Shown in pieces: positions 7,170 to 57,226 of a stretch of DNA of 64,000 nucleotides. The notes beneath the pieces were generated by a model that saw only the letters and a program-made list of their open reading frames with translations, did not search any database and was not told where the DNA came from. Position 1 is the stretch's first letter. Each line of letters starts with the position of its first letter. The DNA is taken from contig NZ_CP088285.1 in assembly GCF_011516645.4 (NCBI RefSeq), positions 6,218,501-6,282,500 of the forward strand, written 5' to 3'. Source of the stretch: Bradyrhizobium septentrionale (GTDB taxonomy: Bacteria; Pseudomonadota; Alphaproteobacteria; Rhizobiales; Xanthobacteraceae). A program made the position numbers and the translations under genes.

Positions 7170-7262
7170 CCGATCAGTATGCTCCCAGGTCCCTCCCGGG
7201 AGCATCGGTTTCGGTTTCGCGTCCTCCACAACAGGCAGCCTTGCTGCCGCGGCCAATCTGAG

Positions 7263-8138: not shown

Positions 8139-8139
8139 C

Positions 8140-10547: not shown

Positions 10548-10588
10548 CGTTCGAAAATTTCAAACAAGAAAGCAAAGCAAGGGAGATC

Positions 10589-23134: not shown

Positions 23135-24577
23135 ATGACCGACCTTTCGGACGCTCGATTAGCGAAGGCACCGGTTAGCTTCGGCGCCTTTTCATTCGCT
23201 TTTGCCTCTCTCGAGGCGTTCGCAGTCACCTTCGAGATGATCATCGTCGTGCTGTCCAGCATCATCGGCGGCGCGGCCTATCATCTGTTTTACTACCACA
23301 CGGTTTATAGCAACAGCTTCGAGGGTTTTCTAGGGATCGGCGTCCTCGCCGCGATCCTTCACATGTTCGTCGCCAAGTCGCAGGGCCTCTACAATGCGCA
23401 GGTGCTGGCCGGCCTCGACCGGCGCTGGAGCAGCCTGCTTGGCGGGTGGCTGCTGGTCGTCCTGCTGATGACCCTGATCATCTTCCTCTTGAAGGTGGGT
23501 TCCGGCGTCTCGCGCGGCTCGGTGATGTCGTTCGGGCTGATCGGCGGCCTCGGGCTGGTGACCGGACGGATGCTGCTCCAGGCGCCGCTGCAACGCGCGA
23601 TCGACCGCGGCATGCTGGCGACGCGCCGCGCCGTCGTGGTCGGGATGGCGGAGGAATTGTCCCGGGTGCGGCAATCGAGCCTGCTGCGCGATTTCGGTCT
23701 CAGCGAGGTGCGACGGGCGCAGCTTTCCGGTATGTCGGACGACGACGGCGACCGGGCGGCGGTCGCGTCAGCCATTCGCGCCGCGCGGGAGTGCGGCGCC
23801 GACGAGATCGTCCTGGCGATGCCATGGCAGCAGGAGCCGCGCATCCAGTTCGTGTGCGACCTGCTGCGGGCGTCGCCGCTGCCGGTGCGGCTCTTGCCCG
23901 ACCGGACGGCTGAACGGTTCCTGGCGCTGCGGATGGTGGCGTCTGGCCCGATCCCGACGCTGGAAATGCAGCGCTCGCCGCTCACTTCGTTCGAGCGCGC
24001 CGGCAAGCGGCTGTTCGACATCGTGGCGTCCAGCGGCCTGCTGCTGCTGTTCGCGCCGCTGCTGATCGGGACGGCGATTGCGATCAAGCTCGACTCACGA
24101 GGGCCGGTGCTGTTCCGGCAGCGCCGCAACGGGTTTGACGGCAAGCAATTCCACATCCTCAAATTCCGCTCCATGCATGTGCTCGAGGATGGCGATGTCA
24201 TCACGCAGGCCCGTCCGAACGATCCGCGGCTGACCGGGATCGGCGCGACGCTGCGCCGCCGCAGCATCGACGAGCTGCCGCAGCTGGTGAACGTGCTGCG
24301 CGGCGACATGTCGCTGGTCGGGCCGCGGCCGCACGCGCTGGCGCATGACGACAAATATTCCAAGCTGATCGCGAGCTATGCGCAACGCCAGCACGTCAAG
24401 CCGGGCATCACCGGTCTTGCGCAGGTGCAGGGCCTGCGCGGCGCGACGCCCGCGATCGAGGATATGCAGCTGCGCGTCGCCCACGACCTCGTCTACATCA
24501 AGAGCTGGAGCTTCATGCTGGACCTGCGCATCCTGTTGCGCACGATCGGTGCGGTGCTGCGGCACACGGGCGTTTGA
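23135..24577 (+). CDS. Polyprenyl-phosphate sugar-1-phosphate transferase (EPS-initiating, WcaJ/ExoY type)
   Basis: A 480-residue polyisoprenyl-phosphate hexose-1-phosphate transferase. The first ~150 residues contain four membrane helices, followed by a soluble middle domain (VVVGMAEELSRV; ADEIVLAMPWQQ). The catalytic PssA-type domain occupies about residues 285-480 and starts with the membrane helix RLFDIVASSGLLLLFAPLL. Its conserved motifs are RQRRNGFDGKQF, FRSMHV, RRRSIDELPQL, MSLVGPRPHA and KPGITGLAQVQG. It attaches the first sugar to undecaprenyl phosphate and so starts each EPS repeat unit at the inner membrane. The sugar is often glucose or galactose in this family but is not readable here. 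Confidence 0.93.
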   Translation: MTDLSDARLAKAPVSFGAFSFAFASLEAFAVTFEMIIVVLSSIIGGAAYHLFYYHTVYSNSFEGFLGIGVLAAILHMFVAKSQGLYNAQVLAGLDRRWSSLLGGWLLVVLLMTLIIFLLKVGSGVSRGSVMSFGLIGGLGLVTGRMLLQAPLQRAIDRGMLATRRAVVVGMAEELSRVRQSSLLRDFGLSEVRRAQLSGMSDDDGDRAAVASAIRAARECGADEIVLAMPWQQEPRIQFVCDLLRASPLPVRLLPDRTAERFLALRMVASGPIPTLEMQRSPLTSFERAGKRLFDIVASSGLLLLFAPLLIGTAIAIKLDSRGPVLFRQRRNGFDGKQFHILKFRSMHVLEDGDVITQARPNDPRLTGIGATLRRRSIDELPQLVNVLRGDMSLVGPRPHALAHDDKYSKLIASYAQRQHVKPGITGLAQVQGLRGATPAIEDMQLRVAHDLVYIKSWSFMLDLRILLRTIGAVLRHTGV

Positions 24578-28220: not shown

Positions 28221-28833
28221 ACCCTCAATCAGTTAACTCAAACCATCTCATTCAGAGATAACGGGGACATCACACGAAAGCAAAGCCGGAGTGGCGTCAT
28301 GCGGAGCTTTGTCCCGCGATGATGTTGCCGGTGTCGCCGAATTGCCTCACCTTGCTAACATTCTCTATCAATTGCATCGCAATATATCACCGAACCTTGT
28401 GATTTCGATAGTCGGCATGTTACGGCACGGTCGGAGTATTTAGATGTCGCGTGCGAATTTCATTCGAGCAATGTTATTGCTTGCGGCCGCCGGATCGGTC
28501 AGCGGTTGCCATTACATGCCGACCAATGGTCCGACGAGTTCTGATGTCGTGGCCGGGCAGAAGGATCCGGAAAGCCTGCCCTATGCGATGGTCAAGATCA
28601 CGCCGCAGGTCGAGAACGTGCTGGCGTCGTTCGCGCCGCAGCTCGCCGGAGGCATTCAGGGCCCGCCGCCCAAGGACATCCACTTCGGCATCGGCGACGT
28701 CGTCAGCGTCACGATCTTCGAGGCCGCCGCCGGCGGTCTGTTCATTCCGGTCGAGGCCGGCGTGCGCCCCGGCAATTACATCACGCTGCCGAACCAGAAC
28801 GTCGATACCGACGGCAACATCTCGGTGCCCTAT

Positions 28834-30276
28834 GAGCTTGTCTGGATAGTCGCTGTTCAAATCTGGTCGGGTCTGATTCAACATTGGGCGATGAGCAAGT
28901 ATTTTCGGCCTTGGAACATCGATCAGACGCTGCTTCTGCCGCCGAATGTGCAGGACTTCGTGCCGAAAGGCCATGTCTCGCGGTTTATGGTTGATCTGGT
29001 GCGGGAGAGCCTCGATCTCAGGGAGATCATGGGCAGCTATGTGAGCGGGCTTGGGCAGCCGCCGTTTGATCCGCGGATGATGGTGGCGCTGCTGCTGCAT
29101 AGCTATGCGAGTGGGCTGTATTCGTCGCGTCGGATTGCCAAGGCCTGCCGGGAGCGGAACGATTTTGTGATGATCGTGGCGCTGGATGCGCCGGATTTTC
29201 GGACGATCAGCGACTTTCGCAAGCGACATTTGAAGGCGCTCGGCGCGCTATTCGTGCAGGTTCTGAAGTTGTGCGAGACGGCCGGGCTGGTCAAGCTCGG
29301 TCATGTCGCGCTGGATGGTACGAAGATCAAGGCGAACGCGTCGAAACACAAGGCGATGAGTTATGAGCGCATGAAGAAGCGCGAGGCGGAATTGAAGGCC
29401 GAGGTCGCTCGCATGCTGGCGGCCGCCGAGGCGGCGGATGCCTCGGAGGATGAGACTTTCGGCAACAGCGACGAACTGCCGGACTGGACCGTCGACAAGC
29501 AGAAACGGCTGGCGAAGATCCAGCAAGCGATGGCGGCGCTGGAAGCGGACGCCAAACTGGCGGCGGAGGAAGAGCGCCGCATCGAGGCCGAAAAGGAACA
29601 GCAGCGCCAGGCCGAAGGCCGCAAGAAGCCGGGCAAACCGGCGGCGCTGCCATCGGAGGAACCCAATCCCAAGGCGCAACGCAACTTCACCGATCCGGAA
29701 AGCCGCATCATGAAGTCGAAGGATGGCTTCGTTCAGGCCTATAATGCCCAGGCGGCCGTCGATGCACATGCCCAGATCATTGTCGCGCAAGAACTGACCC
29801 AGCACGGCAGCGATCAGGGCCAGTTGGTGCCCCTGATCGAGGCCATCGAGAGCAATCTTGGCCGCAAGCCGCGGCAGGCCTCAGCGGATTCCGGCTACTG
29901 CAGCGAAGCCAATCTCGAAGCGCTCGACACACGCAGCATCGATGGCTATGTCGCGCCCGGACGCGCCAAACACCCGACAGTAGCGAACGGAAAAGTCGGC
30001 GGCCCGCTGACACAGGCCATGCGAAAGAAGATCGACGATGGCGGCTTCGAAACACCCTACCGATTGCGAAAGCAAGTGGTGGAGCCGGTGTTCGGGCAGA
30101 TCAAACAGGCAAGAGGCTTCCGCCAGTTCCTGTTGCGGGGCATCGAGAAAGTGCGCGCCGAGTGGACAATGATCTGCACCGTCCATAACCTCCTCAAGCT
30201 GTTCAACCTCGCAAACGCAGCCTGAGCCTGCTACTCTACAACAAATGCCCGTCACGAAAACATATCTGGACGGGCT
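28834..30276 (+). mobile_element. IS1182-family insertion sequence inside the export gene
   Basis: A 1443-base element bounded by CCTAT direct repeats (28829-28833 and 30277-30281). The imperfect inverted ends start GAGCTTGTCTGGATA on the left and GAGCCCGTCCAGATA on the right, read inward, with 11 of 15 matching. The duplication could be read as six bases (CCTATG), shifting the ends by one. It encodes one intact transposase in the same direction as the interrupted gene. Confidence 0.9.
28891..30225 (+). CDS. IS1182-family (DUF772) transposase
   Basis: A 444-residue DDE transposase. The N-terminal DUF772-type domain is visible in MSKYFRPWNIDQTLLLPPNV and FDPRMMVALLLHSYASGLYS. The acidic residues are in VALDGTKIKANAS, SADSGYCSEANL and VEPVFGQIKQARGF; a charged coiled-coil insertion lies at about residues 165-255. 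The frame is fully open and continues upstream into the truncated export gene with no stop between, so a lipoprotein-transposase chimera could be read; I take the ATG at 28891 as the native start. Confidence 0.92.
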   Translation: MSKYFRPWNIDQTLLLPPNVQDFVPKGHVSRFMVDLVRESLDLREIMGSYVSGLGQPPFDPRMMVALLLHSYASGLYSSRRIAKACRERNDFVMIVALDAPDFRTISDFRKRHLKALGALFVQVLKLCETAGLVKLGHVALDGTKIKANASKHKAMSYERMKKREAELKAEVARMLAAAEAADASEDETFGNSDELPDWTVDKQKRLAKIQQAMAALEADAKLAAEEERRIEAEKEQQRQAEGRKKPGKPAALPSEEPNPKAQRNFTDPESRIMKSKDGFVQAYNAQAAVDAHAQIIVAQELTQHGSDQGQLVPLIEAIESNLGRKPRQASADSGYCSEANLEALDTRSIDGYVAPGRAKHPTVANGKVGGPLTQAMRKKIDDGGFETPYRLRKQVVEPVFGQIKQARGFRQFLLRGIEKVRAEWTMICTVHNLLKLFNLANAA

Positions 30277-31107
30277 CCTATGCCGGCGCGATCCGCGCCA
30301 AGAACCGCACCCCGACCGAAGTGCAGCGCTCGATCGTCGATGCGCTGAAGAATCGCGCGATCGAGCCGCAGGCCGTGGTCGCCCTGATCGAGCAGCGCAC
30401 CTCGCTGATCTCTGTGCTCGGCGAGGTCAATACGCCGAACCGCTTCCCCGCCAATGCCGCAGGCGAGCGCGTGCTCGACTCGATCACGCGCGCCGGCGGC
30501 CCGAAAGGGCAGGGCTTCGATACCTGGGTGATGCTCGAGCGCGACGGCAAGCGCACCACGGTGCCGTTCGGCCAGCTGGTCTACGAGCCCAAGAGCAACA
30601 TCTACGCGCATCCCGGCGACACCATATATGTCTACCGCGAGCCGCAGACCTTCGTCGCCTTCGGCGCCTCGGGCGCGCAGGGCCAATTCAACTTCGAGGC
30701 CTGGCGCATCTCGCTCGCCGAAGCGGTCGCCAAGGCCGGCGGCCTGAACGATTCATCGGCCGATCCGGCCTCGGTTTTCGTCTATCGCGGCGAGCTGCCG
30801 GAAGTCGCCGCCAAGCTCGGCGTCGACGTCAGCAAATATTCAGGGCCGATCATCCCGGTCGTCTACAACATCAATTTCCGCGATCCGGCGGGCTATTTCC
30901 TGGCCACGCGTTTCCAGCTGCGCAACAAGGACGTACTGTATGCGTCGAATGCGGCGTCGGTCGAAGATGCCAAGGTCATGCAGCAGATCCGCCTCGTGAC
31001 CGCAACGGTGAACGATCCGATCGTGGCCGCCTACAACGCAACCTTACTTCGCAATTCGATCAAGCTTGCGCCCTGATTTCGGGGCGTGAGCCGGCCCGCC
31101 CGGCTTC

Positions 31108-32610
31108 ATGACAAATTCACGATTAGCTTCCGGCTCGCGCGAGGCGACGGCATTGCCGTGGCCGGTGCGATGGTCGTCGTGGCTGTTCTGCGCCGTCGTC
31201 GCGCTGGCCCCGCTGCCGCTCGGCTCGGTCGGTGTCACAGCGCCCGCGATCTGGTCGATCCTGCTCGCCATTGCGCTGCTCGGGGCATTGCCGATGCGCC
31301 TGCGCGACAGCCAGCTCGCAATCCTCGCGGTGACGGCGCTGCTGACGGCGCTCGCCCTGCTGGTGTTGCACGAGCAGTCGGCGGTCCACCCCTGGCTCGG
31401 TGCAGCGCCGAACGCGCTCTGGGCGGACGCCGGCAAATTGTTGCCCGCCGAACTGCCGCCGATCGCGTCGATCGCACGCCATCAGCCATTTTATTCCGCC
31501 GGCCTTGGAATCGTCTGCCTGCTCTCTTTTGCGATCGGTGTCGTGCTCGGTGCCGACCGCGCCATAGCGCGCAGGCTGTTGCGGACAGTGGCCGCGGCCG
31601 GCCTCGTCTATGCGATCGCCGGTATCGTCACGTTCGCGATCGATCCCACGCGGATTTTCCTGCTCCATGAGAAGGAGGCGCATCTGACGTGGCTGACGTC
31701 GCCCTTCGTCAACCGCAACACCGCGGGCATTTACTACGGCTGCTGCGCGCTGATCTGGCTGCTGTTTGGCTGCGAGCTGATCGAGCGCAACTGGCCGCCG
31801 CGGCGTTTCAGCCCGTCGCGCCTGCTGGCGCGCCTTGATGGGCCGGCACGGCGCCGGCTCGCCGGCCATGCGCTGGGCTGGCTGGTCTGCCTGCTGGCCA
31901 TGTTTCTGACCGGATCGCGCGGCGGCGTCGGGATCTCGCTGCTCGCCGCGGTCGTCGCGGTCGCGATCTTCTTCCGCAAGCGGATGCCGCCGCGCTACGG
32001 CTTGATCATGGCGCTTTGCGTCGGCAGCCTGGTCGCGCTCGCCCTGCTGCAGCTTCTCGGCGGCGGCGTCGGCGCGCGCTTCAGCACGATGGGGCTGTCG
32101 GACGAGGGCCGGTTCTCGACCTATCGCGCGACGCTGCGGATGATCTTTGACCATCCCTGGCTCGGCGATGGTTTCGGGAGCTTCGAATGGGTCTATCCGG
32201 CCTATCGGACCGATGACATCTCGCTGCGCGGGACCTGGAACCGGGCGCACAACAGCTGGCTCGAACTGGCGTCCGACGGCGGAATGTTAATGGCCGGCGC
32301 CGTCATCGTCGCGCTGCTCGCAGCGTTCAGTGTGCTCGCGCATGGCGTACGGAGCCGCCGCCGCGACGTGATCGTGCCGCTTGCGGCGCTGTGCGCGTCG
32401 GCCGCCGGTGCCATCCATTCGATGATCGATTTCTCGCTCCAGATCACCGGCTACGCGGTTGTCATCGCGGCCTTGCTCGGGGCGGGACTGTCACAATCCT
32501 TCCGCTCCGGGCCGGGCAACGGCCGCGGCGGTGCCAATGTTATGGCGGGGCCGCCGGTTAACGTTGATTTCGCTGGGCATGCCGGGGCCGCGGCCGGCGA
32601 GGCTATTTAA
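31108..32610 (+). CDS. O-antigen ligase/EPS polymerase (Wzy-like) membrane protein
   Basis: A 500-residue protein with about 12 membrane helices. The Wzy_C signature region is clear: LTSPFVNRNTAGIYYGCC, MFLTGSRGGVGISLLAA, then the periplasmic loop GRFSTYRATLRMIFDHPWLGDGFGSF and RGTWNRAHNSWLELASDGG. The N-R-N, S-R-G-G and H-N-x-W/Y residues are those conserved in ligase/polymerase enzymes. It probably polymerises lipid-linked repeat units in the periplasm. It starts 31 bases after the disrupted export gene, so its expression may be affected by the IS insertion. Confidence 0.88.
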   Translation: MTNSRLASGSREATALPWPVRWSSWLFCAVVALAPLPLGSVGVTAPAIWSILLAIALLGALPMRLRDSQLAILAVTALLTALALLVLHEQSAVHPWLGAAPNALWADAGKLLPAELPPIASIARHQPFYSAGLGIVCLLSFAIGVVLGADRAIARRLLRTVAAAGLVYAIAGIVTFAIDPTRIFLLHEKEAHLTWLTSPFVNRNTAGIYYGCCALIWLLFGCELIERNWPPRRFSPSRLLARLDGPARRRLAGHALGWLVCLLAMFLTGSRGGVGISLLAAVVAVAIFFRKRMPPRYGLIMALCVGSLVALALLQLLGGGVGARFSTMGLSDEGRFSTYRATLRMIFDHPWLGDGFGSFEWVYPAYRTDDISLRGTWNRAHNSWLELASDGGMLMAGAVIVALLAAFSVLAHGVRSRRRDVIVPLAALCASAAGAIHSMIDFSLQITGYAVVIAALLGAGLSQSFRSGPGNGRGGANVMAGPPVNVDFAGHAGAAAGEAI

Positions 32611-33439: not shown

Positions 33440-35713
33440 ATGCTTCAGCGTAACCAGATTTCGCCGTCCGTCGATCTGAGAAATCGCTCGGCCGAACTGC
33501 CGTCGCTGGCGGAAACATTCGACGCGTTCGTCACCTATCTGCTCCGGCAGTACTGGGTCATCCTCGGGACCGCCGCGCTCTGCTTGTTCGGCGGCATCTG
33601 CTATTTGGCGACTGCGGCGCCGAGCTATACCGCGCTTGCCACGATGATCATCGACACGCGCAAATTCCAGGTCTTCCAGCAGCAATCGCCGGTCAGTGAC
33701 GTCCCGGTGGATTCCTCCGCGGTCGAGAGCCAGGTCGAAATCCTGAAGTCGGAGAACGTGGCGCTCGCGGTGATCCGGGACCTCAAGCTCACCGACGATC
33801 CGGAATTCGTCGGCTCCAAGGTCGGCGCGGCGGGAGCGGTGCTGGATTTCGTGACCGGCCTGTTCACGGGCAGCGGGCCGCCCAACGAGTTCGACCGGAC
33901 CCGGCGCGCGGTCCGCACCTTCCAGAAGCAGCTCGAGGTCCGCCGCCGCGGCATGACCTATGTGATCGAGGTCTCCTTCCGCTCGCTCGATCCCGAGCGC
34001 GCCGCGCAGATCGCCAACGCCGTCGCCGACGCCTACATCGTCGACCAGCTCGATTCCAAGTTCCAGGCGACGCGCCGCGCCAGCGTCTGGCTGCAGGACC
34101 GCATCCAGGAGCTGCGCTCGCAGGCATCCAGTGCCGAGCGTGCGGTGCTCGACTACAAGAAGACCAACAACATCGTCACCTCCAGCGGCAAGTTGATGAA
34201 CGAGCAGCAGCTCGGCGAACTCAACACGCAGCTGCTTCACGTGAAGTCGCAGGTCACCGACGCCAAGGCCAAGCTCGACCGCATCGAGGCGGTGGTGAAG
34301 AGCGGCGTCCCCGATGCGACGGTCGCCGATACCCTGAACAACCAGGTCATCACCAAGCTGCGCTCGCAATATCTCGAGCTTGCCAACCGCGAGGCCGACT
34401 GGTCGTCGCGCTATGGCTACAATCATCTGGCCGCCGTCAATCTGCGCAACCAGATGCGCGAGATCCAGTCGTCGATCATGGATGAGCTGAAGCGGCTCGC
34501 CGAAAGCTACAAGAGCGACTATGCGATCGCCCTGCAGCGCCAGAGCGAGATCGAGCGCGCCGTGAACGATTCGGTGTCGCAGTCGCAGTCCACCAACCAG
34601 GCGCAGGTGACGCTGCGCGAGCTCGAGAGCTCCGCGCAGACCTATCGCTCGCTGTACGACAATTTCCTGCAGCGCTACATGGAAAATGTGCAGCAGCAGT
34701 CGTTCCCGGTCAGCGAGGCGCGGGTGATCACCCGTGCCTCGCGTCCGCTCGGCAAGAGCCACCCGCAGACCTTCGTCGTGCTGGCGCTCTCGATGCTCGG
34801 CGGCCTGATTGCCGGGCTCGGGCTCGGCGTGTTGCGCGACCTCTACGACCGGGTGTTCCGCACCGCCGAGATGGTCGAGACGATCCTCGACACGGATTGC
34901 GTCGCCATCGTTCCCCGCGTGCCGGCAGGCCAGATCAAGGCCGCGGTTGCCGTCCGCCCCAATCTGCCGGCCGGTCCGCGGACGATCCGGTGCGGCGACG
35001 AACCGGTGCTGTGGGCGGCGATCGATTCGCCATTCTCGCGGTTCTCGGAAGCGATCCGCTCGATCAAGGTCAATGCCGACCTCAACGTCACCAAGCCGTC
35101 AAAGATCCTTGGCCTGACCTCGGCGCTGCCCAACGAGGGCAAATCGACGCTGGCCTTCGTGTTCGCGCAACTGGTGGCGCAGAGCGGTGCGCGCGTGCTG
35201 TTGATCGATTGCGATCTGCGCAATCCCTCGCTCAGCCGCAAGGTCGCGGCCAATGCCGAGCGCGGCATCCTCGACGTGCTGTCGAACAATGCAACATTGC
35301 AGGACACGATATGGCGCGATCCCGAGACCGGGCTTGCCTTCCTGCCGGGCGCCACACGATCGCGCATCGCGCATTCGCACGAGGTTTTGGCCTCCGACCA
35401 GATGAAGGACTTCATCGACGCGGCCCGCAGCCAATATGACTACGTGATCGTTGATTTCCCGCCGTTGACGCCGGTGGTCGACGTCCGCATCACCGCGCAC
35501 TTCGTCGATTCCTTCGTCTTCATCGTGGAGTGGGGCAAGACCCAAGTGCAGGTGGTCGAACGGGCGCTGCGCAGCGCCCGTGCCGTCAACGAGAACCTGC
35601 TCGGCGTCGTGCTGAACAAGGCCGATATCGCCGCGATGAGCCGCTACAGCGGTTATGGCGGCAAGAACTACTATTACAACTCGCACTATGGACGATATGG
35701 CTACACCGAGTGA
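33440..35713 (+). CDS. BY-type tyrosine kinase / chain-length determinant (ExoP/Wzc-like)
   Basis: A 757-residue inner-membrane co-polymerase fused to a tyrosine autokinase. It has the first membrane helix at about 35-60 (YWVILGTAALCLFGGICYLA), a long Wzz periplasmic domain with coiled coils (about 60-430), and a second helix (FVVLALSMLGGLIAGLGLGV, about 435-455). The cytoplasmic kinase carries Walker A TSALPNEGKSTLA (about 558), Walker A' VLLIDCDLRNPSL and Walker B YDYVIVDFPPL (about 664). The C-terminal end is a tyrosine cluster, YSGYGGKNYYYNSHYGRYGY, expected to be autophosphorylated. It controls polymer length and couples to the Wza-type export channel, which is disrupted in this strain. 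Confidence 0.93.
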   Translation: MLQRNQISPSVDLRNRSAELPSLAETFDAFVTYLLRQYWVILGTAALCLFGGICYLATAAPSYTALATMIIDTRKFQVFQQQSPVSDVPVDSSAVESQVEILKSENVALAVIRDLKLTDDPEFVGSKVGAAGAVLDFVTGLFTGSGPPNEFDRTRRAVRTFQKQLEVRRRGMTYVIEVSFRSLDPERAAQIANAVADAYIVDQLDSKFQATRRASVWLQDRIQELRSQASSAERAVLDYKKTNNIVTSSGKLMNEQQLGELNTQLLHVKSQVTDAKAKLDRIEAVVKSGVPDATVADTLNNQVITKLRSQYLELANREADWSSRYGYNHLAAVNLRNQMREIQSSIMDELKRLAESYKSDYAIALQRQSEIERAVNDSVSQSQSTNQAQVTLRELESSAQTYRSLYDNFLQRYMENVQQQSFPVSEARVITRASRPLGKSHPQTFVVLALSMLGGLIAGLGLGVLRDLYDRVFRTAEMVETILDTDCVAIVPRVPAGQIKAAVAVRPNLPAGPRTIRCGDEPVLWAAIDSPFSRFSEAIRSIKVNADLNVTKPSKILGLTSALPNEGKSTLAFVFAQLVAQSGARVLLIDCDLRNPSLSRKVAANAERGILDVLSNNATLQDTIWRDPETGLAFLPGATRSRIAHSHEVLASDQMKDFIDAARSQYDYVIVDFPPLTPVVDVRITAHFVDSFVFIVEWGKTQVQVVERALRSARAVNENLLGVVLNKADIAAMSRYSGYGGKNYYYNSHYGRYGYTE

Positions 35714-36539
35714 GCCGCGTGGTGAGGCGATCAGGCGTGCAGGCGTCTGGCTCGCGCGCGGCTTGCTGGCCGCGGCCGCGTGCTCGTCCGTCGCCTGGGG
35801 CGCGACCACCTTGCCTGACTTTGTCGACCAGACCCGGCTGGATGGCGCCAGGGACGTGATCCTGCGCAACGTACCGATCAGCGATGCCGAGCTCGATGCG
35901 CTGGGTCCGGCCCTCGCGCGTGCCGCAGCACGATCGGATTGTATGCCGGCCATCGATCGCAGCACGGCGGTGATCCGGCTGCGGCTTGCCGAGAACGCGC
36001 TCGCATCGGGCGATCGGGTGGACGCTCGGATGGGCGAGCTCGACGCGGCCATTCACAAGTCGCTCGGCTGTGCGCCGGCTGACCCTTACCTCTGGCTCGT
36101 GCTGTTCTGGCTCCGCAATATCAGGCAGGGCCTGACCGACGCGAATTTCGACCTGCTGCGCATGTCGTACCGGCTCGGCCCCAATGAGGGCTGGATCGTG
36201 GTCAAGCGCAGCGCCATGGCGCTCGCGATGTTCGATGCCCTGCCGCCCGACCTCTCGGGTGCGGTCGTTGCCGAGTTCGCGCGTCTTGTGAAGACGGAGC
36301 TGTATACCGAGGCCATCGACCTATTGAAGGGACCTGGATGGGCGCATCGGGAGAAGTTGCTGGCCGGCCTCGCAACTGTCCCCAAACGGAACGTCGACAT
36401 CCTGACCCGCACAATGGCCGACATCGGATACGATCTCGATCGCCGCTCCCCGGCGGAACGGCGCAGCCTGGAGCGCGAACCAAATTTCGGACGTGACGAG
36501 CTTGCCCGAATGCCATCAGGAGCTGTGGCGAGACCATGA
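35697..36539 (+). CDS. Hypothetical exported protein of the EPS operon
   Basis: A 280-residue protein beginning inside the kinase gene by 17 bases. ATG 35697 is chosen; 35688 is also possible. Residues about 12-37 form a signal peptide or anchor (ARGLLAAAACSSVAWGA). The rest is helical, with TPR-like patterns (AVIRLRLAENALASGDRVDA; LYTEAIDLLKGPGWAHREKL). Overlaps at both ends (the next start lies within its stop) show tight translational coupling. Not recognised. Confidence 0.72.
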   Translation: MATPSEPRGEAIRRAGVWLARGLLAAAACSSVAWGATTLPDFVDQTRLDGARDVILRNVPISDAELDALGPALARAAARSDCMPAIDRSTAVIRLRLAENALASGDRVDARMGELDAAIHKSLGCAPADPYLWLVLFWLRNIRQGLTDANFDLLRMSYRLGPNEGWIVVKRSAMALAMFDALPPDLSGAVVAEFARLVKTELYTEAIDLLKGPGWAHREKLLAGLATVPKRNVDILTRTMADIGYDLDRRSPAERRSLEREPNFGRDELARMPSGAVARP

Positions 36540-37294
36540 CGATGGAATTCAGCGTCGGACAGCACAATGCGCATTATGAGGGTGTCTATTCGGCACGCGA
36601 GCGCGACTGGCGGCGCGTCTGTGCGGTCGACAAGGCCGATCATATCGCGGACTTGCTGGGCCGCTCCGCCACTGGAATCGGCAACGTGCTCGAGGTCGGC
36701 TGCGGCACCGGCGCCGTGCTGGCCCGGCTGTCTGCGATCGGCATCGGCCGCGATTGCACCGGGATCGACGTCATCGATCCCGCGACCAATCTGGAGACCG
36801 ACGGCGCGGCGGCGGTCCCGTTCCACTGGTTGAGCTATGACGGTGTGACGATCCCGTTCGCGGACGGATCGTTCGATCTCGTCTATGCCAGCCATGTCCT
36901 GGAGCATGTGCCTGAGCCGCGCGCATTCCTGCACGAGCTTGCCCGCGTCGCGCGGGGTTTGATCTATGTCGAGGTACCCTGCGAACTGCACGCGCGCACC
37001 AGCCGCCGGGCGCTGCAATCCACGCTCGACATCGGCCACATCAATTTCTACACGCCCGGCACGTTTCGCCTGGTGCTGGAGACTGCGGGACTCAAGGTCA
37101 TGGGCTTCGGCACCTATGACCACAGCCTGCCGGTGCACGCATTCCATTCGTCACCCGCGAAGGGGCTCGCCAAGAGCATCGTGCGGAAGACGCTGTTGTC
37201 GGCCAGCCCGGAGCTGGCGACCCGGCTTGCGACCTATCATTGCGGGGCGCTCTGCCGGCGCGACGAGGCGCCGCCGCTGCCGCAGGACCGCTGA
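36536..37294 (+). CDS. Class I SAM-dependent methyltransferase
   Basis: A 252-residue methyltransferase. SAM-binding motif I is VLEVGCGTGAVLARL (about 50-64); later motifs are FADGSFDLVYASHVLEHVPE and ARGLIYVEVPCELH. It probably methylates a sugar of the repeat unit or a lipid-linked intermediate. Starts 4 bases before the stop of the preceding gene (ATGA overlap). Confidence 0.85.
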   Translation: MTMEFSVGQHNAHYEGVYSARERDWRRVCAVDKADHIADLLGRSATGIGNVLEVGCGTGAVLARLSAIGIGRDCTGIDVIDPATNLETDGAAAVPFHWLSYDGVTIPFADGSFDLVYASHVLEHVPEPRAFLHELARVARGLIYVEVPCELHARTSRRALQSTLDIGHINFYTPGTFRLVLETAGLKVMGFGTYDHSLPVHAFHSSPAKGLAKSIVRKTLLSASPELATRLATYHCGALCRRDEAPPLPQDR

Positions 37295-37297
37295 GCC

Positions 37298-38413
37298 ATG
37301 GCGCCGCGCGTGGTCGTCTTCAACAACATGATCACACCCTACACCAACCGTCTCTACAACGAGCTGGTCAGTCGTGGGCTGGATCTCGCCGTGCTGTCCT
37401 GCACCGCGCAGGAGGCCGACCGCTCCTGGGCCGGCTCCTTCACGCCGCGTTACACGACGCGGACGGTGCCCGGCATCTCGATCCCGCTGTCGCGGTCGCG
37501 GCACACCCATGTCAATGTCGGGATCGCGCGCGCCTTGAAGAGGCTCGCGCCCGACCTGCTGTTCGTCAACGGCCTCTATCCGTCCATGCTTGCCGGCGCC
37601 GCGTGGGCACGCGCCAACGGCAAGCCGCTTGCGCTGACGATCGACGGCTGGCGTGAGACAATGCCCAATACCGCCTATCATCGTCTGGCGCGGCCCTGGC
37701 TGCTGCGCCAGTGCGGCGCGGTCGTGTGCTGCAGCGACAAGGGCAGGGCTTATTTCAGCGGCGAGGGCGTCCACGACGCGGATCTGTTCGTGGTGCCGCT
37801 GGTGCCGGCATGGGATCCGCCGAAAACTGTGCCTGATTTTCAGGAACGTCCGTTTCATCTGCTGTGGTGCGCCCGCATCAACGATGACGCCAAGAACGCG
37901 ATCTTCTTCGAGAACGTCGCGATCGCGCTCGGCCGCATCCTGCCCGCCTTGAAGGTCCGCGTGGTCGGGTCCGGCGTCGCCGAACAGCGCATGCTGACGC
38001 GGCTTGCCGCCGCCGGGATCGAGGTCCGGCACGATAGCTATGTGCCGTGGCCATCGATCTCGGAGGTCTATCTGCAATCACGGCTGCTGCTGCTGCCTTC
38101 GCTGCTGGAACCGTGGGGGCTGGTGTGCAACGAGGCCTTGCAGTGCGGGGTTCCTTGCCTGGTATCGCCCCATGTCGGGGCCGCCGGCGAGCTGGTGCGC
38201 GACCACGACAATGGCCTTGTTTGCGCGCTCGATGAACAGGCGTGGGTCGATGCGGCGCGCGCCTTGCTGGACCAGCCCGCGCGCTGGCGGACGATGTCGC
38301 AGCAGGCCCGGCAAAGCGTGCGAAGCGATGCGCTTCAGGACGCGGCTTCGCGTTTCATCGCCGCTGTCGATCATCTTGTGGACGCACCAGGGCGACAGGA
38401 AGCCGTGCAATGA
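37298..38413 (+). CDS. GT4-family glycosyltransferase
   Basis: A 371-residue GT-B enzyme. The N-terminal domain begins VVVFNNMITPYTNRLYNEL; the C-terminal donor-binding domain contains PFHLLWCARINDDAKN and the GT4 motif LLPSLLEPWGLVCNEALQCG with its two glutamates. It adds a sugar from a nucleotide donor during repeat-unit assembly on the cytoplasmic face. Stop overlaps the start of the next gene (ATGA). Confidence 0.87.
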   Translation: MAPRVVVFNNMITPYTNRLYNELVSRGLDLAVLSCTAQEADRSWAGSFTPRYTTRTVPGISIPLSRSRHTHVNVGIARALKRLAPDLLFVNGLYPSMLAGAAWARANGKPLALTIDGWRETMPNTAYHRLARPWLLRQCGAVVCCSDKGRAYFSGEGVHDADLFVVPLVPAWDPPKTVPDFQERPFHLLWCARINDDAKNAIFFENVAIALGRILPALKVRVVGSGVAEQRMLTRLAAAGIEVRHDSYVPWPSISEVYLQSRLLLLPSLLEPWGLVCNEALQCGVPCLVSPHVGAAGELVRDHDNGLVCALDEQAWVDAARALLDQPARWRTMSQQARQSVRSDALQDAASRFIAAVDHLVDAPGRQEAVQ

Positions 38414-39702
38414 TCGGCAGATGGTGGTCGCGAACCGACGTCTTCCTGCACGCCTATCTGGTGATGGTGCTCGGCTGCATCTATTTCCTGTTCAATTTCG
38501 TCGAGGGGATCTCGTTCGCGGAACGGGCCGGCGAATCCACCTTGTTTCGCGGCGCGTGGCTGCTGCTCTACATCCTCCTGATGCTGCATATCGCGGTCGA
38601 CCGGACGCGCTTCGGCCTGCTGCTGCTGCATTCGCATCTCTATCTGGCATTCGTGGCCTTTGCCGCCGTCTCGCTCGCCTTGAGCGCCGACCCCGCCGGC
38701 TCGTCGATCAAGTTCGCGATGTACGTGCTGACCACGATGTTCTCGGCGTGGGTCGTGATCAGCTGCCCGGTCGATCGCCTCGTCGACACGCTGTTCCGGA
38801 TCGGGATCGTGGTGCTGATCGTCCATGTCCTGCTGTTTCCGGTGATCGGCTCGGAATGGAACTACGATGCGCTGAATCGGCCGACGGTGCTCGGGACCCA
38901 GGCCTATGCCGGCGTGTTCGGCCACAAGAATCTCGCGGGTGCCTTCTTCGGGCTCATGGTGCTGATCTGCTTCGTACGCATGCTGGCAGGGCCGCGACGG
39001 CAATTCGGCTGGTCGCTGCTGCTGATGGGATGCCATTTTGTTGCGCTCGCCGCGGCCGGCTCCGCAGGACCCCTGATCAGCATGTTGACGACGGTCGCGG
39101 TCACCTTCGGGCTGTTACTGGTGGTGCTCGGGCGCCGCGGGGCCGCGTCGATCTACTGGCTTGGGCTCGCGTCCTTTGCACTGGTCGTGCTCGTCGTACC
39201 CAGCGACTACCTCTATGCGCTGGTCGGCCGCAGCGGAAACCTGACCGGACGCTCGTTCCTCTGGTCGGTGTGGCCGCACTTCTTCTGGCAGCATCCCTGG
39301 CTCGGCTACGGGTTCTCCGGATTCTTCAACGAGCTGCCGAACTCGCCCGCCAACGAGCTGACGAGCATGGCGCCATGGAACACGGAGTTCGGCTCGTTCG
39401 AAAATTCCTATCTCGACGCCTTCCTCCAGTTCGGTCTGCTCGGCGGCGCGCTCTATGTGCTGCTGCTGGCACGGGCGTTGTGGAACAGCATCGTCTTCAC
39501 ATTCGAGCGGCGCGGGATGTATTGGCTGGCGCCGTTCGCGATGCTGCTGTTCGTTGTGATCGCGTCGGCCAACGACTCCAGCCAGCTGCTGCACAATTAT
39601 TTCGGCTGCGTGCTGGTGTTCTGGTGCTATTTCGGCCCGGAGGCCAGGCTGCAGGCGGCGCCGCGGCGGGCGTTCACCAGACTGCGTGCGAGTGAGGCGT
39701 GA
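38410..39702 (+). CDS. O-antigen ligase/polymerase-like membrane protein
   Basis: A 430-residue protein with about 11 membrane helices. The Wzy_C-type loop is visible as GRSGNLTGRSFLWSVWPHFF, WQHPWLGYGFSGFFNEL and FGSFENSYLDAFLQFGLLGG; FGHKNLAGAFFGLM is the family's N/K motif. I start at the ATG at 38410, which overlaps the previous stop; the open frame upstream is a shadow of the GT4 gene. Third ligase-like gene in the locus. Confidence 0.86.
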   Translation: MIGRWWSRTDVFLHAYLVMVLGCIYFLFNFVEGISFAERAGESTLFRGAWLLLYILLMLHIAVDRTRFGLLLLHSHLYLAFVAFAAVSLALSADPAGSSIKFAMYVLTTMFSAWVVISCPVDRLVDTLFRIGIVVLIVHVLLFPVIGSEWNYDALNRPTVLGTQAYAGVFGHKNLAGAFFGLMVLICFVRMLAGPRRQFGWSLLLMGCHFVALAAAGSAGPLISMLTTVAVTFGLLLVVLGRRGAASIYWLGLASFALVVLVVPSDYLYALVGRSGNLTGRSFLWSVWPHFFWQHPWLGYGFSGFFNELPNSPANELTSMAPWNTEFGSFENSYLDAFLQFGLLGGALYVLLLARALWNSIVFTFERRGMYWLAPFAMLLFVVIASANDSSQLLHNYFGCVLVFWCYFGPEARLQAAPRRAFTRLRASEA

Positions 39703-41018
39703 GTGCATTGACCGACAGGCTGGACCGCGTGGCGGCCCAAAGGCGGGTCGCCGGCGCCGTGCGCGGATCGCTCCGCCGGCTGCGGCGCGCCGGGGGCAAT
39801 GTCGCGCTCGGCCTGGTCGATCAGGCGCTGCTCAGCGGCTCGGCCTTCGTGCTGACAATCGTGCTCGCCAATGTGCTCGATGTCAGTTCGTTCGGCAGCT
39901 TCAGCGTCGCCTGGTCGTTCTCGATCCTGATCGAGGCGGTGTTTTTGCGCGGACTGTTCGACGACGGGCTGCCGGCGGCCGCGCATCGGATTCCGACATC
40001 GTTGTGGCCGCAGCTTCGGCTTGGCCTCTATCTGTCGTCGTTGCTGGTCTCGGCTGCGCTCGGCCTCCTGCTGGTGATCGCGGGCCTTGTGATCGTTGTG
40101 ATCGGCGGGGGCGCCGGCGGGCTCGTGATCGCAACCGGGCTCGCGATCCCGGCGGTGCGTTTGCAAAGCATGTTCCGCCGCATCTGCTATCTCGACGGCC
40201 GGCTGCCGCGCGCTACGGCGTCATCGCTGACCTACTGCTTGGCGCTGGCCGTCTCGGCCGGGCTGATGATCGCCTTCAAGCTCGCCGGCGCTGCGGCGGC
40301 GATGGCGTGCATCGCGATATCGGCGGCGCTCGCAGCCAGCCTTTTGCTTGCCCACACCAGCGAGCTCGCCTGGCCGCAAGCCAGGATCTTCCGCAGCTCG
40401 CTGCGGCGGCTGTTCAGGAACGGCCGCTGGTTCGTCGCGAACTCGCTCACCTACTGGATCGGCAGCATCGGGCTGATCCCGGTGTGCGGCCTGCTGATCG
40501 GGCTGGAGGCGAGCGCGTCGCTGCGCATCCTGCTCCTGGTGTTCGCGCCGCTCAGCCAGTTCTGCGCGACGATGTTCTCGGTCCGCCTGCCGGAAATCGC
40601 GGCCGAGCTGCGCGCGGGCAGGCGCAGCGCAGTCGCCGCCGCCGCGCGCGAAAACGCGCTGCTGCTCGGGTCGATCGCAGTCGCCTATGGTGCGGTGATC
40701 GTGTTGCTTGGCCAGCGCATTCTCGCGCTTGTCATCCACGGACAGAGTTACGAGATCGGTGCCGGCAGCCTCGGCCTGATGGCGGCTGCGATGGCGCTCG
40801 ATGCCGTGTGGCTCGGCCTCGCGCTGCCGCTGTTTGCGACCGGCAAGCCGCAGCGGTTCATGCTGAGCCGGATCGCGGGCCTCGCCGCGCTGTGCTGCGT
40901 TCTGCCGTTCGCGGCTCAGGCCTGGCAGGTGACGGGCGCGGTTGCGGCGATGGTCGCCTCCAGCGCAGCGTCGGTGGTCACAGTGGTGCTGACCAATTCG
41001 GTGCGGGAGCGGACATGA
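39699..41018 (+). CDS. Polysaccharide flippase (Wzx-like, MOP superfamily)
   Basis: A 439-residue protein with 12-14 predicted membrane segments and the usual beginning NVALGLVDQALLSGSAFVLT followed by LDVSSFGSFSVAWSFSIL. It starts with GTG overlapping the previous stop (GTGA). It probably moves undecaprenyl-linked repeat units across the inner membrane to the polymerase. Confidence 0.85.
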   Translation: MSALTDRLDRVAAQRRVAGAVRGSLRRLRRAGGNVALGLVDQALLSGSAFVLTIVLANVLDVSSFGSFSVAWSFSILIEAVFLRGLFDDGLPAAAHRIPTSLWPQLRLGLYLSSLLVSAALGLLLVIAGLVIVVIGGGAGGLVIATGLAIPAVRLQSMFRRICYLDGRLPRATASSLTYCLALAVSAGLMIAFKLAGAAAAMACIAISAALAASLLLAHTSELAWPQARIFRSSLRRLFRNGRWFVANSLTYWIGSIGLIPVCGLLIGLEASASLRILLLVFAPLSQFCATMFSVRLPEIAAELRAGRRSAVAAAARENALLLGSIAVAYGAVIVLLGQRILALVIHGQSYEIGAGSLGLMAAAMALDAVWLGLALPLFATGKPQRFMLSRIAGLAALCCVLPFAAQAWQVTGAVAAMVASSAASVVTVVLTNSVRERT

Positions 41019-41641
41019 CCGACGACACAGCCGGCCGCGCGCTATCCAAGTTGCATATCGGTGCCTTCAATTGCGGTATCGAGGGCTGGATCAACACCGA
41101 CATCACCACGCATCTGTGGATCGCGCGGGTACCGTTTGCGGCGAGGGCGCTGCATCTCGCCGGCCTGCTCAGCGATGCCCGCTATGCCGAGCACCGCCAG
41201 GGCAAGTTTGCCGGGCTGCGCTACATGGATCTGACAAAACCGCTGCCATTCGCGGACGGCAGTCTCTCGGCGGTGTTCAGCGCCCACGTCTTCGAGCATC
41301 TGTTTCCCGATGAGGTCGAGCGGCTGGCGCGCGAGATCGCACGGGTGCTGGCGCCGGGCGGGGTGTGCCGCATTGTCGTTCCGGACATGGAAAGGATCGT
41401 CGCGCTCTACGATCCGGTCGCGCCGCAGGCCTTCCTCAAGGGTGTATTCGAGATCGAGCGGCGCTCCGAGGTCGCGTTCGCGCATCACTGGGGTTATACC
41501 CGTGCGTCGCTCGCAACACTGTTCCGCGCCGCGGGGTGTTCAGAGACCCATACAAGGGCCTACCGGGAGGGCGTCTGTCCCGATATCGACCGGCTCGACA
41601 ACCGGCCGGATGAGTCGATCTTCTTCGAGGCGATCAAGTAA
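41015..41641 (+). CDS. Methyltransferase-like protein (class I, short N-terminus)
   Basis: A 208-residue protein. The beginning LHIGAFNCGIEGWINTDITT replaces the classical glycine-rich SAM loop, a form seen in small EPS-cluster methyltransferase-like proteins. The middle, PLPFADGSLSAVFSAHVFEH, followed by EIARVLAPGGVCRIVVPDME, is typical methyltransferase. ATG overlaps the flippase stop. Catalytic activity is probable but not certain because motif I is atypical. Confidence 0.8.
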   Translation: MTDDTAGRALSKLHIGAFNCGIEGWINTDITTHLWIARVPFAARALHLAGLLSDARYAEHRQGKFAGLRYMDLTKPLPFADGSLSAVFSAHVFEHLFPDEVERLAREIARVLAPGGVCRIVVPDMERIVALYDPVAPQAFLKGVFEIERRSEVAFAHHWGYTRASLATLFRAAGCSETHTRAYREGVCPDIDRLDNRPDESIFFEAIK

Positions 41642-41656
41642 GGCAGGAGACTGACA

Positions 41657-42328
41657 TTGCTGGGCGCAATTCAAGCCCGATTTTCCAGTGCAGCGCGCAA
41701 GCGGCGCGGCGAATTCCTCGTTCGCACCGTGAACCTGCCGCTGGATGCGAAAATCCTCGATCTCGGCGGCGGGACCGGCCGGCATATTCGCGCGATCCTG
41801 CCCCGCCATCGCAACATCACGGTGTGCGACATCTCGGCCGACGACCTCAAGGCCGCGCGCGAGCGTTTTGGCTTCAAGACCGTGCTGCTGCAGGAAACCG
41901 AGCGCCTGCCGTTCGACGATCAGGCGTTCGACTTCTGCTTCTGCTCGTCGGTGATCGAGCACGTCACCGGGCCGAAGCAGGAGGTCGTGACGATCGAGGA
42001 CGGGGCGGCATTCCTGAGTATCGCGCGTCAGCACCAGAACCGCTTTGCCGGCGAAATCTCGCGGGTGGCAAAGTCGTTTTACGTGCAGACGCCGTACCGT
42101 TACTTTCCGATCGAGAGCCACACCTGGCTGCCCGGCATCGTCGTCCTGTTGCCGAGACGGCTGCAGATCGCGCTGATCGGTGTGTTCAACCGCTTCTGGT
42201 TCAAGCGGACCGCGCCCGACTGGCACCTGTTCGACTGGCGCGAGATGACGGAGACGTTTCCGGACGCGACAATCTATCGCGAGCGATATCTCGGCATGAC
42301 CAAGTCGCTGATGGCGGTCAAGACGTGA
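41657..42328 (+). CDS. Class I SAM-dependent methyltransferase
   Basis: A 223-residue enzyme starting at TTG; AGGAGA lies 6 bases upstream, which decides the start. Motif I is ILDLGGGTGRHIRAIL (about 32-47), followed by LPFDDQAFDFCFCSSVIEHV. The C-terminal part is hydrophobic (SHTWLPGIVVLLPRRLQIAL) and may touch the membrane, consistent with action on a lipid-linked glycan. Last gene of the plus-strand block. Confidence 0.82.
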   Translation: MLGAIQARFSSAARKRRGEFLVRTVNLPLDAKILDLGGGTGRHIRAILPRHRNITVCDISADDLKAARERFGFKTVLLQETERLPFDDQAFDFCFCSSVIEHVTGPKQEVVTIEDGAAFLSIARQHQNRFAGEISRVAKSFYVQTPYRYFPIESHTWLPGIVVLLPRRLQIALIGVFNRFWFKRTAPDWHLFDWREMTETFPDATIYRERYLGMTKSLMAVKT

Positions 42329-43074: not shown

Positions 43075-44385
43075 CTACCAGTGGAAGCCGCTCACTCTGG
43101 CGCGCACCTCTTCGGGCAATCCGATATCAGACAGTTCGAGCACGATTTGGTCAGGGCGCGTTGTCGTCAGCGCCGCGACGAAGCGCGGATCAGGCGTCAT
43201 CAGCACGATAATGTCGGCCCATTCGATGGTCGCGGTGACATCGTCGTGCAACAGGCCAACCAGCTCCGGGTTGCGCATCAAAAAGTCCCGGTTAGCGCCG
43301 ATCAGCTGCGACAGCCGCACATTGGGGTCGTAGATCCGGATGTCGCGCTGCTCGCCGCGCAAGCTCTTCACCAGTTCCACGAACGGGCTGTCGCGGACAT
43401 CGTCGGTGCCGGCCTTGAAGCTGATGCCGAGGAAGGCAATGCGGCGGCCGTCATGCGACAGGATCCAGTCGGCACCGCGCGACATGATCATGTCGTTGCT
43501 GGGCAGGATGCTCTCGAGCACCGGCGTCGACAGCCCGCGGCTGTGCGCCAGATGTTTCAGTGCCTTGACGTCCTTGGGCAGGCACGAGCCGCCGAAGGCA
43601 AAACCCGGCCGCAGATAGGCCGGCGAGATGTTGAGCCTTGTGTCCTGCAGGAAGATGTTCATGACGTCGCGGCCGTCGATGCCGAGCGTCTTTGCGATCG
43701 TCCCGATCTCGTTGGCGAAGCTGACCTTCAGCGCGTGCCAGCTGTTGTCGACATATTTGACCAGTTCGGCGGTCTCGACCGGCGGCGTGATCTTGGCGCC
43801 CGGCAGATCCTTGTAGAGCGCCATGACGCGATCGGCGGTCTCCTGGTTGAAGGCGCCGACCACGGTCTTGGAGGGTGCGTTGAAATCCGCAATGGCGCTG
43901 CCTTCGCGCAGGAATTCCGGATTGAAGGCGAGGTCGAAATCGCGGCCGATCCGGTTGCCGGAGGCTTCCTCGATCAGCGGTCCGACGGTGCCGCGGGTGG
44001 TGCCGGGCAGCACGGTGGAGCGGATCGTCACGGTATGCGGCGCGTTCTTCGCGCGCAGTCCGCGGCCGATCTCGATCGCGACCTGTCGGATCGCGGTCAG
44101 GTCGAGGTTGCCGTTGCCGGACGAGGGCGTGCCGACGCAAACCATCGATATGTCGCTGTTGACGATCGCCTCGGTGGCGTCGGTGGTCGCGGTCAGCTGA
44201 CCCGTGGCAACCGCGCGCGCCACCTTGTCCGAGATACCCGGTTCGATCACCGGCGATCTGCCTTCGCGGATCAGGTCGACCTTGGCAACGCTCTTGTCGA
44301 CGCCGATGATCTGATGGCCGAGGTCGGTGAAGCAGGCGGCGCAGACCGTTCCGACATAGCCGAGGCCGAAAATGCTCACATTCAT
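43075..44385 (-). CDS. AlgD-like nucleotide-sugar dehydrogenase (GDP-mannose 6-dehydrogenase type)
   Basis: A 436-residue four-electron-oxidising dehydrogenase that makes a nucleotide-linked uronic acid. It starts MNVSIFGLGYVGTVCAACF (NAD Rossmann motif), and the active-site segment is YLRPGFAFGGSCLPKDVKAL with the catalytic cysteine at residue 268, the position I know for Pseudomonas AlgD. Further AlgD-like blocks are NPEFLREGSAIADF and SWHALKVSFANEIGTIAK. GDP-mannose to GDP-mannuronate is therefore the most likely reaction; UDP-glucose dehydrogenase is the alternative. ATG at 44385; the open frame further upstream is not family-like. Confidence 0.88.
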   Translation of the reverse strand: MNVSIFGLGYVGTVCAACFTDLGHQIIGVDKSVAKVDLIREGRSPVIEPGISDKVARAVATGQLTATTDATEAIVNSDISMVCVGTPSSGNGNLDLTAIRQVAIEIGRGLRAKNAPHTVTIRSTVLPGTTRGTVGPLIEEASGNRIGRDFDLAFNPEFLREGSAIADFNAPSKTVVGAFNQETADRVMALYKDLPGAKITPPVETAELVKYVDNSWHALKVSFANEIGTIAKTLGIDGRDVMNIFLQDTRLNISPAYLRPGFAFGGSCLPKDVKALKHLAHSRGLSTPVLESILPSNDMIMSRGADWILSHDGRRIAFLGISFKAGTDDVRDSPFVELVKSLRGEQRDIRIYDPNVRLSQLIGANRDFLMRNPELVGLLHDDVTATIEWADIIVLMTPDPRFVAALTTTRPDQIVLELSDIGLPEEVRARVSGFHW

Positions 44386-44464
44386 GCTTCGACCTTCAAT
44401 AACCTTGGGACCTGCGCGTGACCGCGGCGGCGTTGCGGTCGACGTGAGTGAAGCGGCATGGCGT

Positions 44465-45766
44465 TCAAGACGATGCCCGCCCGGCGGCAGCGTTCGCGCT
44501 GGAATGCGAGGTTGACCGCTCGGCGGTCGGATTTGCGCGCGGCGCAGGGCGTTGCGCGGGGGCTTTCGCGGCGAACAGAGCCTCATAGGCCGCAAGCAGC
44601 TTCGGCTCCTCATGCGTCCAGGACAGCGCGCGCTCGACGCGACTGCGGCCGAATGCCCCCATCGTCTGCCGCAACGACGGATCGTCGATCAAAGTAATGA
44701 TCTTGCTGGCAAAATCCTTCGGGTCGTTCTTCGCCGCATAGAGCGAGGCGTCGAGCGCCGAGCGGCGGCCTTCGCGGACGTCGAACTGAACGATCGGCCG
44801 TCCCAGCGCCATGTACTCCATGATCTTGTTCATGGTGGAGATGTCGTTCATCGGCGTGACGCGGTCCGGATTGACGCAGACCTCCGCGGTCGAGAGCATC
44901 GTGAACAGCGGCTCATCCGCGACCGCGCCGGTGAAATTGACGTAGTCGGAGAGCCGCATCTCCTCGCAGAGCTTGACGACCGCGTTCCACTCCGGCCCGG
45001 TGCCGGCGATGTTGAACTGGATGTCGGTGCGTCCGAGATCGTGCACGATGTGGCCGATCGACTGCAGCAACAGATCGATGCCTTCCGACTGGCCGATCAC
45101 GCCGACATAGCCGACGCTGTAGCGCCGGCCATTGCGCCAGGCCGGATCGGCCGGGCGGGCGCGCACCCGCTCGAGATTGGGGCCCGAACGCACCACGAAG
45201 ACCCGGTCGGCCGGCATGCGACCGCGCCTGATCGCGATCTCGCGGTAGGACTCATTGGTCGCAATCGAGATGCTCGCCGTCTTGAAGGTGAGATATTCGA
45301 CCAGCCGCAGCAGCTGCCAGAACATGTCGCGGCGGCCGAACTTCGCTTCATAAAGCTCGGGGTTGACGTCGTGATGGTCGAACACGAAGCGCTTGCCGCC
45401 GAGCCTGAACAAGAGGCCGATCAGGAAGATCAGGTCGGGCGGATTGCAGCCTTGGATCACGTCGAAGCCGTGCTTCCACGCCACCTTGATCGAAAGCCAC
45501 ATCTCCCAGAACAGCGCGACCGGATATTCGATCAGGTAGGCGGCGATCCCGCGCGCTTCCACCGGCATCGGATGGCGGTAGATGTGAATGCCCTCGAGGC
45601 ATTCGTAAGACGCGTCATGGCCGCGGCCCTTCGGGCAGATCACCGAGACCTCGTAGCCTGCCTTGCGCAGCGACGTTGCTTCGCACCACACCCTGCGATC
45701 GAAAGGAACCGGAAGGTTCTCGACGATAATCAGGATCCGCCGCGGTGATGGTTCAGCTCTCGACAT
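44465..45766 (-). CDS. GT4-family glycosyltransferase
   Basis: A 433-residue GT-B enzyme. It starts RRILIIVENLPVPFDRRVWC, has a middle block HHDVNPELYEAKFG and a donor-binding part with VGYVGVIGQSEGIDLLLQSI and NDISTMNKIMEYMALGRPIV, the region carrying the conserved glutamate. The protein is like WbuB/ExoE-type transferases. Start at ATG 45766; a further ATG 11 codons upstream is possible. Divergent from the glycoside hydrolase gene. Confidence 0.86.
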   Translation of the reverse strand: MSRAEPSPRRILIIVENLPVPFDRRVWCEATSLRKAGYEVSVICPKGRGHDASYECLEGIHIYRHPMPVEARGIAAYLIEYPVALFWEMWLSIKVAWKHGFDVIQGCNPPDLIFLIGLLFRLGGKRFVFDHHDVNPELYEAKFGRRDMFWQLLRLVEYLTFKTASISIATNESYREIAIRRGRMPADRVFVVRSGPNLERVRARPADPAWRNGRRYSVGYVGVIGQSEGIDLLLQSIGHIVHDLGRTDIQFNIAGTGPEWNAVVKLCEEMRLSDYVNFTGAVADEPLFTMLSTAEVCVNPDRVTPMNDISTMNKIMEYMALGRPIVQFDVREGRRSALDASLYAAKNDPKDFASKIITLIDDPSLRQTMGAFGRSRVERALSWTHEEPKLLAAYEALFAAKAPAQRPAPRANPTAERSTSHSSANAAAGRASS

Positions 45767-54513: not shown

Positions 54514-54553
54514 GATCTCAGGTCTTCACAAACTAGGTCTTCACTAAACGAAG

Positions 54554-56268: not shown

Positions 56269-56294
56269 GATCCTGGGTCTGCACCAAACGACGA

Positions 56295-57217: not shown

Positions 57218-57226
57218 CGGTTGTCG

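Follow-up and report, generated by a model that had tools for sequence, protein, structure and literature searches.

A Wza-like export (OPX) gene of a Wzx/Wzy-type locus in Bradyrhizobium septentrionale has very probably been inactivated by the recent, chance transposition of an IS1182-family insertion sequence into an off-consensus target site. The split gene (28444..31076, plus strand) lies in the window, the whole 64,000-nucleotide stretch of DNA that was analyzed, which is part of a 9.80-Mb contig in a 10.41-Mb genome of 4 contigs. The bacterium presumably comes from Canadian soybean nodules, and a recent natural loss of such an exporter in a symbiont of this kind would help to establish whether the polymer has a role in symbiosis.

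The export gene is recovered as two parts that flank the element at 28834-30277. The 5′ part (28444..28833, plus strand; 130 codons) encodes about half of a Poly_export domain, has a start that we take to be a lipoprotein signal, and is 95% identical to residues 1-131 of P0001, an intact polysaccharide export outer membrane protein of 394 amino acids from Bradyrhizobium brasilense. The 3′ part (30278..31076, plus strand; 264 codons after the duplication) has no signal-like start and is 98% identical to residues 129-394 of P0001. Because both parts show this level of identity to a single intact protein, they represent one gene rather than a chance association. A continuous open frame of 593 amino acids (28444..30225, plus strand) now joins the N-terminal part of the export gene in frame to the transposase. 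When searched alone, the 5′ part matches positions 2-41 of the 77-position Pfam profile PF02563 below its cut-off (21.2 bits against 28, E 3.4e-4), and no Pfam match was found for the 3′ part alone. P0001 contains PF02563, PF10531 and PF22461, so the intact gene encodes both Poly_export and SLBB domains. In alignments to E. coli Wza (2J58), P0001 covers Wza residues 47-338 (E 3.8e-19) and the 3′ part covers residues 112-346 of the chain (E 5e-13). The C-terminal outer-membrane segment of Wza is placed at residues 326-359 in the relevant section of PMC9603273, from which we drew the C-terminal-segment criterion for class 1 OPX proteins (at least 10 residues of this segment); the 3′ part extends to residue 346 and P0001 to residue 338. 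By its alignment to Wza, the intact gene would encode a class-1-like OPX protein; the intact homologue resembles E. coli Wza, whereas the split copy carried here cannot yield a full protein.

The interrupting element (28834..30277, plus strand) is 1444 bp long, with imperfect inverted repeats at its termini (11 of 15 bases agree) and one transposase gene (28891..30225, plus strand; 444 amino acids) that is open throughout and contains PF01609, PF05598 and PF13751. The transposase scores 365 bits against the NCBIfam family model NF033551 (cut-off 270), and the single open reading frame, the terminal inverted repeats and the 4-bp duplication are traits of the IS1182 family, to which an earlier note on this DNA had assigned the element. 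The observation at the heart of that note, a Wza-like export gene interrupted by an intact insertion sequence, is confirmed, with the element, the split gene and a duplication all at the places described. Its 5-bp CCTAT duplication (28829-28833 and 30277-30281) has to be corrected to a 4-bp CTAT (28830..28833 and 30278..30281), a conclusion drawn from other copies of the element and from the corresponding sites in relatives. In the 30 copies that were read with their flanks (the window copy included, from at least 47 left ends in the genome), the terminal C (C30277) is part of the element regardless of the base in front of the target, and the flanking 4 bp are always identical on both sides (29 CTAG and 1 CTAT), so the duplication is CTAT and the element is 1444 bp. 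The miscount arose because a native C precedes the site and matches the last base of the element; a native G likewise follows the site and matches the first base of the element, which extends the apparent direct repeat even to CCTATG. BLAST hits of the two gene parts share 4 bp in 9 of the 11 named close relatives, and in L036 and L038, where the site differs by one letter, the overlap is 3 bp. Past the transposase stop codon, the remainder of the element has no terminator-like site on the plus strand, and there were 0 Rfam matches in the window.

The site occurs once, in an uninterrupted gene, in all 11 named relatives (L034-L044; 9 with CTAT, 1 with CTAC and 1 with TTAT), and in each it falls at the same codons, in a stretch that encodes VPYAGA(I/V)RAK. 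Each of these relatives also matches P0001 over residues 1-394, which supports the 394-codon frame reconstructed in the earlier note, and together they provide the uninterrupted allele that the note had proposed to look for in related strains. A search for the insertion junction that allowed 3 mismatches over 27 bases found it in 1 of 265 genus genomes (one genome per species, own included), namely the window genome, and relatives that share the insertion in a further decayed gene, which the same note had named as evidence against its reading, are thus absent from this set. An ortholog of the 3′ part with at least 91% DNA identity is present in 14 of the 264 other genus genomes, and it is full length in the 4 of these that were seen.

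Sequence divergence of the two parts was compared across 12 relatives, comprising 10 of the 11 named ones (all but L043) together with G010 and G004, either of which might belong to a species already represented among the named relatives. The 3′ part differs from these by 1-5 nonsynonymous changes over 264 codons (dN/dS 0.005-0.042) and the 5′ part by 3-10.5 over 129 codons (dN/dS 0.053-0.157), while a control comparison of the intact genes of G010 and G004 gave dN/dS values of 0.048 (3′) and 0.158 (5′). By this measure, the broken parts look as though they are still under purifying selection, without decay. The surroundings are collinear with the named relatives (10 loci compared, L039 being too short to include). 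Apart from the element, collinearity extends over about 57 kb in G010 and G004. Because the junction is found in 1 of 265 genomes, the parts show no decay and the rest of the EPS block is unbroken, the insertion appears to be recent, at least on the scale of the species compared, as had been proposed.

The remaining genes of the EPS locus are open. They include an initiating sugar-phosphate transferase (23135..24577, plus strand; PF02397, E 5.5e-64) that is collinear with G010 and G004, a Wzy-like polymerase/ligase that begins 31 bp downstream of the OPX gene (31108..32610, plus strand; PF04932), and a Wzc/ExoP-like co-polymerase with a kinase domain (33440..35713, plus strand; TIGR01005 at 418.5 bits, cut-off 411.7; PF02706 and PF13614). 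These are followed by methyltransferases, a glycosyltransferase and a second Wzy-like protein (36536..42328, plus strand; assigned from Pfam and comparison with relatives), a region that also contains an open gene without a Pfam match (39699-41018, plus strand), and by a UDP-glucose/GDP-mannose dehydrogenase (43075..44613, minus strand; PF03721, E 1e-51), for which the coordinates are those of the listed open reading frame and the true start is not fixed. Inner stops are absent from 18 further genes of 22345-46219 (two stretches ended before a stop codon), and no flippase was identified among the open reading frames scanned at the locus, several of which have no Pfam match. A methylated uronic-acid polymer would be in keeping with the presence of a sugar dehydrogenase and of methyltransferases. 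At 47239-51419, the window also contains a fused dehydrogenase/oxidoreductase gene followed by a gene for a heparinase II/III-like protein that might have uronic-acid polymers as substrates.

Comparison with G010 and G004, together with the scan for inner stops, upholds the view that the EPS block carries no other lesion. For example, an apparent methyltransferase truncation at 41642 was rejected, as the gene at 41015-41641 is complete and the difference falls after its stop; relative to G010 and G004, the window lacks about 70 bp at this position, between a pair of methyltransferase genes that are both open. G010_33148_34347 (minus) was also discarded as a broken gene, since it lies on the wrong strand, as was G010_34820_35695 / G004_35373_36248 (minus), where three stops sit upstream of a gene for a 238-amino-acid protein. 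Outside the EPS block, stops or frame changes were seen in small or longer-start open reading frames (G010_10374_10868, G010_14917_15261, G010_15450_15758, G010_51645_53840, G004_200_1570, G004_11956_12375 and G004_12410_12808).

These features are best explained by a simple series of events in which one of about 47 IS1182-family copies recently transposed into the OPX gene, its transposase made a staggered cut at the 4-bp CTAT, and repair duplicated the site. Staggered target cutting is established for such elements. The break in the OPX gene falls after codon 130, within the Poly_export domain, and because the front part is now fused in frame to the transposase and the back part lacks a signal-like start, a Wza-type pore very probably cannot be made from this locus. 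Since the other genes of the locus are open and conserved, the outer membrane is probably the only step at which the pathway is blocked, provided that none of the three distant OPX proteins takes over, and the polymer of this locus probably does not leave the cell. As a point against loss of export, colonies of B. septentrionale 1S1T and B. quebecense 66S1MBT are given the same size in the description available from PMC8374602, and because the sizes are equal the published colonies do not have the look of an export-minus strain, 1S1T not necessarily being the strain of the window.

Export would be unaffected if another OPX protein served the locus, which we consider possible but unlikely. A family search identified three other Poly_export genes in the genome, and these encode proteins of 458 amino acids (L111 8663-10039; in its own cluster with an initiating transferase, a flippase and a nearby co-polymerase), 222 amino acids (L109 9720-10388; beside a co-polymerase and near an initiating transferase) and 249 amino acids (L110 9155-9904); the genome contains five Wzz-type genes in all. 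However, the L109 and L110 proteins are short, class-3-like and align only to the first half of Wza, and three such short class 3 OPX proteins are described in part of PMC9603273 as pairing with a separate β-barrel in Myxococcus. In addition, the L111 protein matches only a short solved OPX piece and belongs to its own cluster, and when P0001 was the query the two short proteins matched at 29-30% over about 100 residues while the 458-amino-acid protein was not listed. No second full-length Wza-like copy was found in the genome by family and protein searches, although the family search did not recover even the split gene of the window, and a copy that is likewise split, or very divergent, could escape it. 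The interpretation in the earlier note, which allowed for export through another channel or a second Wza-like gene, is supported in part: other Poly_export genes do exist, but none is full-length and Wza-like. Other polymers may still leave the cell via other exporters.

The choice of target by this element is the one mildly surprising aspect of what is otherwise an ordinary recent knockout by an insertion sequence. The left end of the element occurs 46 times exactly in its own genome and 47 times when 3 mismatches over 36 bases (target included) are allowed; all 46 exact left ends adjoin CTA plus one base, and CTAG is present at 46 of the 47, with CTAT only at the window copy. Judged against the composition of the window only (13 CTAG, 135 CTAT and 55 ATAG sites), CTAG is preferred per available site by several hundred-fold (46/13 against 1/190). 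Within 5796-63018, where the gene list used covers 86% of the bases, 9 of 11 CTAG sites lie outside genes; inside genes lie 112 of 122 CTAT sites and 29 of 45 ATAG sites. Coding-like frames were found on both sides of 5 of 30 copies, namely the window copy, an expected positive, and 4 of the 29 CTAG copies, in a test that covered 30 of the 47 copies, scored the flanks separately by open frame and GC3, and is a heuristic that may miss genes. The CTAG preference tends to spare genes, and the window copy is an exception.

Target repeats of GGCC are listed for ISPsy36, which is placed in IS1182, and of CTAG for ISPsy32 in the portion of PMC8027508 that treats them, and palindromic targets are noted for some IS1182 members in work cited in a section of PMC5678879, so a palindromic target is a trait of some members only and is not strictly defining. 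Against this family background, the preferred site of the element is the palindromic 4-bp CTAG, whereas the window copy sits in the non-palindromic CTAT, one letter away. These data put clear figures on the way in which site preference steers an abundant element largely clear of genes, and they overturn nothing that is known.

The same numbers bear on the proposal that the insertion was selected because losing polymer export helped the strain in the nodule, in soil or in culture, which strikes us as quite unlikely. Just 1 of 47 left ends is non-CTAG, CTAG is missing from 10 of the 11 intact export-gene homologues so that this gene could hardly be hit except off consensus, and the export gene is kept in close relatives, all of which would accord with selection. 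However, a single event cannot show selection, and off-consensus insertions would mostly fall in genes anyway, given the proportions of CTAT and ATAG sites that are genic. Moreover, a benefit of EPS loss is not obvious, because disruption of an EPS initiating-transferase gene in B. diazoefficiens USDA110 halved nodule number, according to the results cited from PMC8707904. We see only a slim chance that the rarity of CTAG in genes provides a safe harbour for the element, with the lone escape seen in this genome kept since losing polymer export was advantageous; if true, the CTAG specificity of the element would exploit this rarity. With a chance off-consensus transposition as the preferred reading, the rare event would have been kept so far by drift or selection.

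A reversible switch, in which precise excision restores export in part of the population, is very improbable. IS492 excises from an eps locus and offers a precedent, but it belongs to a family other than IS1182, and we know of no programmed excision for IS1182. The clean duplication and the undecayed gene would permit excision, and deletion between target duplications is described in a section of PMC5678879 as able to reverse ordinary transposition, but the assembly holds no other allele, the signal of purifying selection indicates no more than a young event, and nothing observed favors excision as a switch. Least probable is an assembly artefact in which a copy was misjoined into an intact gene: about 47 near-identical copies make misassembly conceivable, but the junctions sit in a 9.8-Mb contig and share the same 4-bp site, the native flanks are contiguous in relatives, and a chance misjoin would not yield a matched target duplication.

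The element is present in full length at 40 or more places in its own genome at about 100% identity; among the 40 listed, 25 share the top score and are 100% identical. Its best-scoring match in 99 other genomes is 72% identical, and the element is likely absent from these, with a maximum of 3 candidates scored per genome. In plasmids of other bradyrhizobia, 14 records match the element at 29 places in all; 12 of the 14 hold a near-full copy in which the best match (one place shown per record) runs through CTAG on both sides. Plasmid copies with at least 99% identity come from B. septentrionale, B. quebecense, B. barranii and other Bradyrhizobium. The flanks of two plasmid copies match a B. 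septentrionale plasmid, at 99.3% over the whole query (C4) and at 100% (C1), and plasmids of B. quebecense, B. barranii and others carry the C4 stretch minus the element at 99.3-99.7% similarity. A copy on C1 (L028; C1:225482-226924) has a left flank that matches a stretch annotated as a NEL-type E3 ubiquitin ligase in B. septentrionale. The adjoining 15 bases are the same on either side of copies L018 and L021, and on the right-hand side only of L024 and L030, which suggests duplicated segments or recombination between copies.

The genome is rich in insertion sequences, like those of the soybean bradyrhizobia B. septentrionale 1S1T (622 predicted), B. quebecense and strain NK6, each of which has hundreds according to the passages cited from PMC8374602. 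That paper deals with rearranged symbiosis genes, and the words exopolysaccharide and IS1182 are absent from its main text. In the window, an integrase-core open reading frame with an IS481-type leucine-zipper match (4331-5563) represents another mobile element. An ABC-transporter block (5913-11833) has related proteins at both ends, about 75% alike, encoded at 5913-7169 (a periplasmic binding protein) and 10589-11833. Adjoining the EPS locus is a type I secretion block (53242-63018), in which genes for RTX-repeat proteins (53242-54513 and 54724-56268) are followed by a methyltransferase-like gene and then by genes for a peptidase-C39 ABC transporter, an HlyD-type protein and a Sel1-repeat protein; at that place G004 has two RTX open reading frames and G010 has one, matching both.
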